From the NCBI RefSeq assembly GCF_036227605.1, contig NZ_CP109487.1:4290001-4354000 (forward strand): DNA of 64,000 bases, in the 5' to 3' direction. The notes beneath the pieces were generated by a model. The model had not been told where the DNA came from and did no database searches. It saw only the letters and a list, made by a program, of their open reading frames with translations. Positions within the stretch are counted from its first letter, which is position 1; each line of letters starts with the position of its first letter. Source of the stretch: Streptomyces sp. NBC_01439 (GTDB taxonomy: Bacteria > Actinomycetota > Actinomycetes > Streptomycetales > Streptomycetaceae). This document shows positions 18,684 through 34,127 of this stretch, in pieces. The position numbers and the translations under genes are program-made.

Positions 18684-18702
18684 ACGCCCTCGTGGCTTGC
18701 TT

Positions 18703-18775
18703 GAGCCGTGTGCATCGACGAGGTGCACGCACGGTTCTGAGGGGACCCCGGCGCAGCAATGCGCCGGGGTTACCC
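18703..18775 (+). ncRNA. Group II intron domains V and VI
   Basis: Domain V is the stem GAGCCGTG (18703-18710) paired with CACGGTTC (18730-18737), containing the catalytic AGC triad and an inner TGCA/TGCA stem. Domain VI follows as a GC-rich hairpin (CCCCGGCGCA with TGCGCCGGGG) and an A near 18772 that could be the lariat branch point. The 3' splice junction lies only a few bases further on. Confidence 0.8.
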
Positions 18776-18778
18776 GGC

Positions 18779-26993: not shown

Positions 26994-27531
26994 GGGGAAG
27001 TGGGTAGCTTCCTTCGTTGGTCAGGCCCTCGGCCGGGATTGCGAGTCCCGCCGGGGGCCGTCTCATGTCTGCGGTGGTCGAGGCGAGCATATGCCCGCCA
27101 ACCCGTATGAAATCCAGCCCAGTTGGCACGATTCACCCGACCGAGCGACACGCTCCCCGGCTGCCGGGGTGGGGTTGGGTCGGTTGGTTCTTTCCCCAGG
27201 TCCTTTGGATCCTTATGCGTCTAAGCACTCCGGATCGCGGTTTCCCGGGACCCGGTCCAGGGGCCGTCGTCCCCACATCGCCCGTGGGCCGCGTCGCGGA
27301 CTCCCACGACCCGGCCCGAGCAGCCGGAAGGTGCGAGCGGAACGGGAGTTGGGCGGGGAAGGCGGCGGCCACGGTGCGGCCAGCCACCAGCGAGGCGGAA
27401 CCGGACGATCGCCCACCGCGTCTCCGGTCCATATCGGCACCGCGAGGTTCCGTATGCGGAAATCCCCGTATTAGCATGCACATGACCAGCTGATTCTGGC
27501 CATGTCCAGTTATCAACTATTCAGGGGATAC
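26994..27531. other. 538-bp gene-free region upstream of the 27.5-kb operon
   Basis: No open frame here looks coding on either strand. It must hold the promoters of the winged-helix gene (-) and of the four-gene operon (+). An AT-rich patch CCCCGTATTAGCATGCACATG near 27463-27485 is the best candidate for the plus-strand promoter. Downstream AGGGGA (27523-27528) is the ribosome-binding site of the first operon gene. No tRNA or known RNA recognised. Confidence 0.45.
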
Positions 27532-32125: not shown

Positions 32126-33439
32126 TCAGGCAGCGACCGCGACCGGCTCGGCGGCCGGGGCGGGCTCGTCCAGCGGGGAGGCCGAGGCGGAGGCGTAGGC
32201 CTCCTTGTCCAGGATCCCCTCGCGGGCCGCGACGATGACCGGGACCAGGGCCTGGCCGGCCACGTTGGTGGCGGTGCGCATCATGTCCAGGATCGGGTCG
32301 ATGGCCAGCAGCAGGCCGACGCCGGCGAGCGGCAAGCCCAGGGTGGACAGGGTCAGCGTCAGCATGACGGTGGCGCCCGTCAGACCGGCCGTGGCGGCGG
32401 AGCCGATGACCGAGACGAAGACGATGAGCAGGTACTCCTTGATGCCCAGCTGCACGTCGAAGATCTGCGCGATGAAGATGGCGGCGAGGGCCGGGTAGAT
32501 CGCGGCGCAGCCGTCCATCTTGGTGGTGGCGCCGAACGGGACGGCGAACGAGGCATATTCCTTCGGGACGCCGAGGCGCTCGGTGACCTTCTGGGTGACC
32601 GGCATGGTGCCGACCGAGGAGCGGGAGACGAAGGCCAGCTGGATGGCGGGCCAGGCGCCCTTGAAGAACTGGAGCGGACTGACCTTGGCGACCGTGGCGA
32701 GGAGCAGCGGGTAGACGCCGAACATCACGAGGGCGCAGCCGATGTAGATGTCGGCGGTGAAGGTCGCGTACTTGCCGATCAGGTCCCAGCCGTACGTGGC
32801 GATCGCGGTGCCGATGAGGCCGACGGTGCCGATCGGGGCGAGGCGGATGACCCACCACAGGGCCTTCTGGAGCAGTTCCAGGGCGGACTCGGCGAGGTCG
32901 AGGACCGGCTTCGCCTTGCCGCCCAGCTGGAGGGCGGCGATACCGGCGACGACGGCCAGGAAGACGATCTGAAGGACCTTCAGCTCGGTGAACGGCGTGA
33001 CGATGTCCGTCGGCACGATCCCGGTGAGGAAGTCGATCCAGGAGCCGGTCTTCTTCGGGTCTTTGCCGTCGGCCGCGGTGAGGCCGGTGCCGGAACCGGG
33101 GTCGGTCAGCAGGCCGATGGCGATGCCGATGCCGACCGCAATCAGCGAGGTGATCATGAACCAGAGGAGGGTGCGGGAGGCGAGGCGCGCCGCGTTGTTC
33201 ACCTTCCGCAGGTTGGTGATCGACACCAGGATCGCGAAGAAGACGAGCGGGGCGATGGCCAGCTTCAGCAGCTGGACGAAGAGGTCGCCGGTCTTCTCCA
33301 GCGTGGTGGCGAGCCAGCTGACGTCGTAGCTGCGGGCTATCCAGCCGAAGAGGACACCGAGGGCGAGACCGGCGACGATCTGGGCCCAGAAGGGGAATTT
33401 GAACGAGGCCTTGGCAGGGGCCTGGGGGGTCGCGGACAC
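32126..33439 (-). CDS. Dicarboxylate/amino acid:cation symporter (DAACS family)
   Basis: A 437-residue transporter with about eight membrane helices and the two family hairpins. Diagnostic blocks are SRSSVGTMPVTQKV (serine-rich HP1), FAVPFGATTKMDGCA (the normally NMDGT site, here KMDGC), and IDPILDMMRTATNVAG. GTG 33439 is preferred, as GGAGAG lies 6 bases upstream. The family takes up dicarboxylates, glutamate/aspartate, serine or cystine (TcyP type). A Cys-rich leader peptide gene lies upstream, which points towards a sulfur amino acid; this is inference. Confidence 0.87.
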   Translation of the reverse strand: MSATPQAPAKASFKFPFWAQIVAGLALGVLFGWIARSYDVSWLATTLEKTGDLFVQLLKLAIAPLVFFAILVSITNLRKVNNAARLASRTLLWFMITSLIAVGIGIAIGLLTDPGSGTGLTAADGKDPKKTGSWIDFLTGIVPTDIVTPFTELKVLQIVFLAVVAGIAALQLGGKAKPVLDLAESALELLQKALWWVIRLAPIGTVGLIGTAIATYGWDLIGKYATFTADIYIGCALVMFGVYPLLLATVAKVSPLQFFKGAWPAIQLAFVSRSSVGTMPVTQKVTERLGVPKEYASFAVPFGATTKMDGCAAIYPALAAIFIAQIFDVQLGIKEYLLIVFVSVIGSAATAGLTGATVMLTLTLSTLGLPLAGVGLLLAIDPILDMMRTATNVAGQALVPVIVAAREGILDKEAYASASASPLDEPAPAAEPVAVAA

Positions 33440-33501
33440 GGACACTCTCCGGAGGTGGCGCACGAAGACAGGGGGGGAAGTACTGCGGTGAAGCGGTGCG
33501 G

Positions 33502-33535
33502 CAGCAGCCAGAAGGGCCGGCCGGGACGGCTGCTG
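33502..33535 (-). promoter_or_regulatory. Hairpin between leader peptide and symporter (candidate attenuator)
   Basis: On the minus strand CAGCAGCC and GGCTGCTG form an 8-bp stem enclosing a GGCCGGCC palindrome, starting 13 bases after the leader-peptide stop and ending about 63 bases before the symporter start. The symporter ribosome-binding region itself (CTCCGGAG) is self-complementary. The arrangement suits coupling of leader translation to symporter expression. Confidence 0.5.
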
Positions 33536-33547
33536 TATCGATTCAGC

Positions 33548-33625
33548 TCAACAGCAACGGGCCGCGGGCGCGCGGCGGCAGAGGTCGACGTGCAGGCGCA
33601 TCGCGAGCGGAACGCTCGTGATCAT
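33548..33625 (-). CDS. Putative cysteine-responsive leader peptide
   Basis: A 25-codon frame, ATG 33625 to TGA 33548, encoding MITSVPLAMRLHVDLCRRAP followed by AARCC. It matches the actinobacterial leader-peptide style (MRLHVDLCRR core, terminal Cys-Cys) annotated upstream of sulfur-assimilation genes, where ribosome stalling at Cys codons is thought to control downstream expression. An upstream in-frame ATG at 33649 adds 8 codons. It lies 108 bases before the symporter start on the same strand, with a hairpin between. Confidence 0.65.
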   Translation of the reverse strand: MITSVPLAMRLHVDLCRRAPAARCC

Positions 33626-33642
33626 GGGGTGCGCAACTGTGG

Positions 33643-33654
33643 TCAACATGTTGA
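33643..33654. promoter_or_regulatory. Perfect 12-bp palindrome TCAACATGTTGA upstream of the leader gene
   Basis: A perfect palindrome located 18 bases before the leader ATG at 33625. The spot and symmetry suggest a repressor site for the leader-symporter transcript. The regulator is not known. It also contains the upstream candidate ATG. Confidence 0.4.
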
Positions 33655-33668
33655 ACACGCTAACACTC

Positions 33669-33691
33669 CCCCTTTGGGAATCTCAAAGGGG
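33669..33691. other. Inverted repeat CCCCTTTG / CAAAGGGG
   Basis: A perfect 8-bp inverted repeat with a 7-base loop in the gap between the DUF4229 gene and the leader. It could be a second operator or a weak hairpin; no T-run follows. Confidence 0.35.
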
Positions 33692-33744
33692 TGCTTTGAG
33701 ACAACGGCGCACGAGGCCCTCTTGCGCCGACCCGAAAAACACCA

Positions 33745-33786
33745 CCGCCCCAGCGGTTACGGGCGGTATACCCGGTGCTGGGGCGG
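33745..33786 (-). terminator. Terminator of the DUF4229 gene
   Basis: CCGCCCCAGC (33745-33754) pairs perfectly with GCTGGGGCGG (33777-33786) 30 bases beyond the DUF4229 stop. It separates that gene from the leader-symporter unit. Confidence 0.6.
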
Positions 33787-33815
33787 TTCGATGTGTGATG
33801 AAGCCAACTGCGGCG

Positions 33816-34127
33816 TTATGAGGTGACGCGCGCCGCGTCGTCAGCCTGGTCCTCCTGGCTGCGGTTCGCGGCGAGCCGCTCCTTCGCACCCGCGACGCGC
33901 CCGGAGATCTGCGTGGACATCTCGTCGCGCTGCTTGCGCAGGAGGACGAAGGAGAGCGGGGCGGAGATCACGATGGCGAGCAGCACGACCCAGGCGACGT
34001 TGGCCTCCCCGAGCCCTGCGGGCACCCAGCCGAGCCGGACGAGGCCCGCGACGGCCACGAGGCATCCGACGAAGATGCCCAGGCGCATCGCGGTGTAGCG
34101 GATCGTTGCGCTCGGCTTGAGGGACAC
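33816..34127 (-). CDS. DUF4229 membrane protein
   Basis: A 103-residue protein with two membrane helices (about residues 13-32 and 43-60) and a charged tail typical of DUF4229 (SFVLLRKQRDEMSTQISGRV; RLAANRSQEDQADD). GTG 34127 follows GAAGGGG. Conserved in streptomycetes near menaquinone genes; function unknown. Confidence 0.85.
   Translation of the reverse strand: MSLKPSATIRYTAMRLGIFVGCLVAVAGLVRLGWVPAGLGEANVAWVVLLAIVISAPLSFVLLRKQRDEMSTQISGRVAGAKERLAANRSQEDQADDAARVTS

Follow-up and report, generated by a model that had tools for sequence, protein, structure and literature searches.

Cysteine leader peptides are known already, and cysteine-responsive ones have been described in mycobacteria. 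There, according to the accessible parts of the reports, leaderless polycysteine short open reading frames lie before cysteine genes and respond to cysteine (PMC4633059; Canestrari 2020, as cited in PMC9094748 and PMC13236596). The accessible part of Seliverstov et al. (2005; PMC1262725) deals with actinobacterial cys leaders from Mycobacterium, P. acnes and B. longum; Rho was considered there for the mycobacterial leaders, and the prediction was called weak.

The leader analyzed here lies in front of a DAACS symporter in a window of 64,000 nucleotides from Streptomyces sp. NBC_01439, which has a single-contig genome of 9.58 Mb. It belongs to a group of leaders with an HVDL motif. Both these and the mycobacterial frames are short Cys-containing frames before cysteine genes, with the leaderless start reported there and predicted here. 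The Cys residues of the mycobacterial frames, as far as those reports are accessible, cluster at the C-terminus, whereas the HVDL leaders often have one UGU-encoded Cys within a fixed core. At its C-terminus the window leader has two adjacent Cys codons, while close relatives have CCC or CCCC and many paralogues a single Cys. The leaders of Seliverstov et al. and the window leader share Cys codons near the stop, the lack of a conserved terminator and a proposed role for Rho, but the accessible part of that study covers neither Streptomyces sulfur genes nor a symporter of the window type. We propose, with a probability of roughly 0.55, that the symporter is a sulfur-starvation gene under translated-leader control, with pausing at a UGU codon and Rho-dependent attenuation. 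The leader would then point to a likely importer of sulfur amino acids in an antibiotic-producing genus.

The locus, its leader and its promoter

The order on the minus strand is DUF4229 gene, terminator, CTCAAAG element, -35, -10, leader, a spacer of 108 bases and symporter, with the following features:

33816-34127, minus strand: DUF4229 gene, the 5' neighbour of the symporter unit
33741..33757, minus strand: intrinsic-terminator-like hairpin and T run 3' of the DUF4229 gene (two overlapping matches; shuffle mean 0.3)
33672..33700, minus strand: conserved DNA element CYCAAAG-N5-CTTTGRG-N3-CYCAAAG, overlapping the -35 and seen in orthologues
33681..33686, minus strand: -35-like TTGAGA, 18 nt 5' of the -10, read from the window sequence
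33657..33662, minus strand: -10 TAGCGT, conserved as TAGCGT/TAACGT
33654-33643, minus strand: palindrome TCAACATGTTGA in the window sequence
33548..33649, minus strand: leader ORF of 33 aa, probably leaderless, MLTTVAHPMITSVPLAMRLHVDLCRRAPAARCC (sequence and orthologue comparison)
33551..33598, minus strand: conserved core RLHVDLCRRAPAARCC, with the family consensus R-[RLV]-H-V-D-L-x-R-x-x-S-A-x-C
33557..33559, minus strand: position of the conserved Cys codon, CGT (Arg) in the window
33445..33547, minus strand: C-rich, G-poor stretch from the leader stop to the symporter ribosome-binding site, a candidate Rho loading site
33502..33535, minus strand: hairpin proposed earlier, with arms CAGCAGCCG (33535-33527) and TGGCTGCTG (33510-33502), varying between clades
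33445..33450, minus strand: symporter ribosome-binding site GGAGAG, of which GGAG is invariant in 38 aligned loci
32126..33439, minus strand: SDF/DAACS symporter of 437 aa, start GTG 33439, with a TcyP-like DGCA..YPA (PF00375, 355.5 bits)

The leader frame, the inverted arms, the palindrome and the symporter start described in an earlier note on this DNA are all present where it had placed them. As the terminator-like hairpin lies behind the DUF4229 gene, the symporter is probably a transcription unit of its own. At gathering thresholds Rfam gave no family in the leader and spacer region. Elsewhere in the window it matched the scr4677 small RNA (26994-27227, minus strand, 99.2 bits) and a group II intron (18701-18778, plus strand, 43.9 bits, cut-off 40).

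The 80 best relatives of the symporter carry the label Streptomyces in 79 cases and Streptosporangium in one; 78 of the 80 loci have an H.D.xR leader upstream. A stricter leader test was passed by 93 of 110 loci, comprising the window, these 80 and 29 further orthologous loci taken from 55 other orthologues listed, which supports a conserved Cys leader. All 60 distinct cores have the same R, H, D, L and R, and 58 retain the Cys that follows L. Mean entropy in these cores is 0.35 bits at the first codon position, 0.28 at the second and 0.66 at the third; since third positions vary most while the core residues are invariant, selection acts on the peptide. The leader is real, and its conservation exceeds chance.

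The leader has been lost at L034, continues beyond the core at L039 and has diverged at L103. At L094-L097, L099 and L101 the ATG of the symporter lies directly 3' of the same promoter element with no leader between them, and at L098 and L108 neither promoter element nor leader was seen. L109-L114 have a different Cys leader between a similar promoter and the orthologous symporter, the Cys codons of which are TGT nine times and TGC five times in L110, L111, L113 and L114. The leader-less loci L094-L097, L099, L101 and L034 are useful natural controls.

The earlier note had read a leader of 25 codons. The frame from ATG 33625 to the TGA at 33550-33548 is indeed present, carries MRLHVDLCRR and ends with Arg-Cys-Cys, but a start at 33625 is not supported, as the spacing of the -10 favours ATG 33649. 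This ATG lies inside the palindrome, and the -10 TAGCGT ends 7 nt 5' of it. The pattern TGTTA[AG][ACG][GT]T, composed after inspection of the sequences, recognised a -10 in 83 of the 93 orthologous loci and failed to match in 10. An in-frame ATG or GTG follows at 7 nt in 75 of the 83, at 6 nt in seven and at neither distance in one, and the distance from -10 to core is 61 nt in 66. Because this -10-to-start spacing is that of a leaderless mRNA, the leader transcript is probably leaderless, with its start at ATG 33649 and a peptide of 33 residues. In the wider family only 37 of 111 leaders have such spacing, and leaderless translation may therefore be confined to some of its members. A stricter E. 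coli-type promoter scan gave nothing at the TTGAGA/TAGCGT region. The palindrome, described earlier upstream of the frame, occurs as an exact copy in only 9 of the 93 loci, all of them close relatives, and was rejected as an operator.

The window version of the conserved DNA element is CTCAAAG-N5-CTTTGAG-N3-CCCAAAG (33700-33672). A pattern search allowing up to two mismatches found a single copy in the genome of the window. Across 31 genomes, including this one and not sorted by presence of the symporter, there were 16 matches in 15 genomes and none in the other 16; a reversed control pattern gave three matches. The symporter is present in the fetched locus for the 12 matches with 0-1 mismatches and absent there for the four with two mismatches. 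We regard the element as a probable operator, likely for a regulator dedicated to the symporter. It is kept even at loci that have no leader.

The leader family and its UGU codon

As a short ORF that has an R.HVDL.R core and precedes a gene, the window leader resembles the leaders described by NF042934, an NCBIfam cis_reg_atten model named 'putative leader peptide', with which it shares the HVDL.R core, the length and the pre-gene position. NF042934 is a protein model and says nothing on the UGU codon or on mechanism. The window leader scores 19.9 bits against it (18.0 in the genome search), under the cut-off of 27. Four other Streptomyces symporter leaders reach 24.8, 24.8, 26.2 and 26.4 bits, and one of the four passes with 27.4 bits when its neighbours in the frame are included.

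Searching the genome of the window with NF042934 gave 23 matches at E ≤10. Of the 13 that were read, the window copy and nine others were taken as leaders, and three (L126-L128) fall within long frames. The nine other leaders precede genes for a sulfatase, a CysO-like carrier with CysM, cysteine dioxygenase, sulfite/nitrite reductase, 3-mercaptopyruvate sulfurtransferase, flavin reductase and a carbon-nitrogen hydrolase, and, for two weak matches (E 0.06-0.07), O-acetylhomoserine sulfhydrylase (L124) and a 2OG-Fe oxygenase (L125). The genes after 112 leaders in 13 genomes were picked by a simple rule of length and GC3, with some wrong picks, and counted in overlapping families, the first 25 of 38 being listed. 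They include Rhodanese (11), sulfite reductase (10), ABC permease (10), PALP/CysM (9), luciferase-type monooxygenase (9), cysteine dioxygenase (8), NMT1/SsuA-like (8), SDF symporter (6), flavin reductase (6), sulfatase (4) and TauD (3). Sulfonate uptake genes are also among those preceded by the family, and two of the six SDF symporters (L166 and L258) fall outside the family of the window symporter. That Cys leaders precede sulfur-assimilation genes, as the earlier note had stated for actinobacteria, is borne out in this genome and 12 others. Because the family precedes sulfur genes, the leader would mark a sulfur regulon that includes the symporter, and the predicted link of the symporter to sulfur is well supported. 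A subfamily of the approximate form L[TL][TS]RR[HL][HI]DLLRV[CS]SA (L122, L205, L213, L221, L244 and L246) has Ser or Gly where the other leaders have the putative sensor Cys.

This Cys, nine residues after the Asp (D+9), is encoded by UGU in 107 of the 108 family leaders that have Cys there. The count started from 116 places (114 of the 118 listed rows, all but the last four, together with L124 and L125) and left out the window copy, L170 and L264, which are not leaders, and the six leader-like frames of the above subfamily, without Cys at this position. It includes the long frames L261 and L263, which are absent from the sets of 111 leaders used for -10 spacing, other Cys codons and wobble bases. 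The sole TGC case, L238, has an internally duplicated core, the second copy of which has TGT. The other Cys codons of the same leaders are UGC 85 times and UGU 22 times (22/107), and those in 110 symporter genes are UGC 211 times and UGU seven times, a background of 7/218. TGT at the conserved Cys is represented in all 12 peptide clusters. For the orthologous leaders it is found in 92 of 93, or 59 of 60 distinct cores, the exception being the window copy.

Wobble T has a frequency of 0.96 at the conserved Cys, and none of the other 19 aligned codons exceeds 0.21. The Fisher values for UGU enrichment are too small to be literal, as the leaders are related. The wobble bases next to UGU vary in the same leaders, and no continuous nucleotide motif was seen around it in the aligned family, which argues for selection on the UGU codon itself. 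The gap from UGU to the stop is three or four codons in 67 of 106 leaders. In the orthologous cores, His and Asp codons also lean to U (CAT 27/60 and GAT 36/60, compared to CAT 2/165 and GAT 39/1869 in symporter genes), less so in the wider family, and the core may more generally favour codons ending in U. A synonymous choice kept this strictly offers a sharp and cheap test of ribosomal cysteine sensing.

The terminal Cys-Cys codons had been proposed as the sensor, but the conserved codon immediately precedes them. This codon 31 is CGT in the window and TGT in the five close relatives compared with it. The window leader also differs from close relatives in having Pro for Ser three codons before codon 31 and Ala for Val twelve codons before that; the terminal TGC-TGT is still present. 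Control may be impaired in this strain, the last UGU may now do the work of the lost one, or the CGT may be an assembly error. With the key UGU changed to CGU, the switch in the window is expected to be weaker or to have moved to the UGC-UGU that is left.

Under the proposed translated-leader control, low Cys-tRNA would slow the decoding of UGU, and the ribosome would pause while UGU occupies the A site and the exit tunnel holds the core. The R.HVDL.R..SA.C peptide might instead arrest the ribosome as a nascent chain, with cysteine or Cys-tRNA(UGU) as effector, in the manner of TnaC, where nascent-chain arrest occurs with tryptophan. This is a real, if tentative, possibility. The residues 5' of the Cys are conserved before unrelated genes while their wobble bases vary, and four of the nine own-genome paralogues (L119, L121, L124 and L125) have a single Cys codon, which would be a poor counter of starvation. 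The remaining paralogues, however, have two or three Cys codons, and the conserved residues could also serve initiation or peptide stability.

A further idea concerns the codon choice. UGU is read by tRNA-Cys with anticodon GCA through a G-U wobble, and tRNA-Cys carries the sulfur modification ms2i6A37. A non-exhaustive pattern search of the genome of the window found one tRNA-Cys with anticodon GCA, and both MiaA and MiaB are encoded there. As UGU needs wobble by the expected ms2i6A37 tRNA-Cys, the leaders would sense sulfur through charging and thiolation. It seems improbable on present evidence that the HVDL leaders are such codon-specific sulfur sensors, combining a fixed nascent chain with an obligatory UGU to read both states of tRNA-Cys. 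If they were, a single synonymous change from UGU to UGC would break control of the whole sulfur regulon, and the window copy would have lost the UGU codon by natural mutation.

The symporter and the spacer before it

The symporter is a DAACS member with likeness to TcyP, as had been suggested. It has a full SDF domain, scores 216.1 bits against the NCBIfam DctA model, far below the cut-off of 513, and is also far under the cut-offs of the GltP and SstT models. Its identity to E. coli TcyP is 30-31%, and the two share the DAACS/SDF family, SRSS and a GCA..YPA insertion. The accessible part of the literature describes TcyP as importing cystine and being induced at cysteine shortage (PMC7373191). 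The only other SDF match in the genome (L002, 536049-537221) has DctA-like motifs and no insertion. In a tree the symporter forms a separate branch, and TcyP is placed relative to SstT and the GltP/DctA group with a support of 0.545. Our best guess for the substrate is cystine or a related sulfur amino acid. Transport of glutamate/aspartate or C4-dicarboxylates, with an indirect link to sulfur, appears somewhat unlikely. It would agree with the binding-site motif DxxxDMxRTxxNVxG, which is as in GltP, and with the similar E. coli BLAST scores (150, 160 and 159 bits for TcyP, GltP and DctA, giving no discrimination). Yet the DGCA..YPA insertion, with its extra Cys, is common to TcyP only and absent from GltP, DctA, SstT and the own DctA-like paralogue, and the leader is of the kind found before sulfur genes.

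The stem-loop that had been proposed between leader and symporter is present at its place in the window but is not supported as a general switch. A search limited to a chosen 5' arm motif found the hairpin in 54 of 90 distinct spacers and not in the other 36; in some clades its arms show compensated variation, and in the others they are absent. Folding of 88 spacers compared with dinucleotide shuffles gave a mean z of -0.38, with five spacers below -2 and the window at +1.3, and a conserved stable fold of the spacer was rejected on this basis. A classical terminator attenuator was likewise rejected, as a terminator hairpin with a U run between leader and symporter was not found; within 33380-33850 only the terminator of the upstream gene was detected.

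Counted from the leader stop up to 15 nt short of the symporter, the orthologue spacers have C.46 and G.254, with C above G in 92 of 92 (92 of 93 orthologues counted, one spacer being too short). The 70 nt after the stop of 112 family leaders have C.448 and G.273, with C above G in 107. The skew declines with distance from the leader, C and G are about equal upstream of leaders, and a control region 5' of the DUF4229 gene has C.326 and G.341. The 70 nt past the symporter stop are also somewhat C-rich (C.418, G.351; C above G in 84, G above C in 22), and the skew is only suggestive as a sign of Rho. Given the C-over-G spacer, the lack of a U-run terminator and the lack of excess folding, Rho-dependent attenuation fits best. 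The ribosome paused near the stop would cover the start of the spacer and block Rho, and transcription would continue into the symporter, which would bring in cystine or a similar sulfur amino acid. With ample cysteine the ribosome would finish and depart, and Rho would load and terminate. We count in favour of this reading, from comparison, the promoter element, the start spacing of a leaderless mRNA, the conserved core, the sulfur genes that follow other leaders of the family, the UGU, the spacer composition and the TcyP-like insertion. Leader-less loci with promoter and symporter, and the six family frames without the sensor Cys, count against it.

We consider it unlikely that the leader works by translational attenuation, where pausing would alter pairing and free or hide the symporter ribosome-binding site. 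The post-UGU codons might pair with the spacer, or a spacer arm with the 3' arm of the above hairpin. In the RNAalifold prediction, columns 114-118, which directly follow UGU, pair with 183-187, and 9 of 38 rows have U-A in place of C-G; the alignment holds 38 of 77 sequences and misses the hairpin-less L038, L063 and L066, so pair counts are not valid for the whole set. RNAalifold also predicts a stem just 5' of UGU. Because of this stem and the post-UGU pairing, some clades may have a structural switch, and the compensated variants of the hairpin arms favour it, as does the control of M. smegmatis cysteine genes in this way, as cited in the accessible part of PMC13236596. However, the U-A rows are almost all close relatives of the window, which leaves few independent pairing events. 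The patchy presence of the hairpin arm motif, folding at the level of shuffles and spacer lengths that range from 34 to 210 nt also speak against it. Control by the promoter alone, with a regulator acting on the CTCAAAG repeats and the leader as a by-product, is very improbable: the element is kept without the leader at L034, L094, L095, L096, L097, L099 and L101, but leader frame, length to core and sensor codon are kept in tens of orthologues, and the same peptide family stands before unrelated genes.

Comparison with other amino acid leaders

We found no description of a Streptomyces sulfur-leader regulon or of the UGU rule in the accessible parts of the open-licence literature, which is not proof of absence. 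The re-annotation of S. lividans TK24, in its accessible part, lists eight leaders, none of them for cysteine (PMC8079986). One of these, metL, is like the window leader in preceding an uptake system and in having no clear terminator; it is leaderless, as is predicted for the window leader, and contains RCMCRRMC; it differs in its peptide, and the accessible text reads it as methionine-dependent (PMC8079986). The cysS uORFC-8-2 motif of Rhodobacterales has likewise been proposed to mediate ribosome-dependent cysteine attenuation, but, as far as that source is accessible, it has an intrinsic terminator and tandem Cys codons, among which UGC is dominant (PMC8632094).
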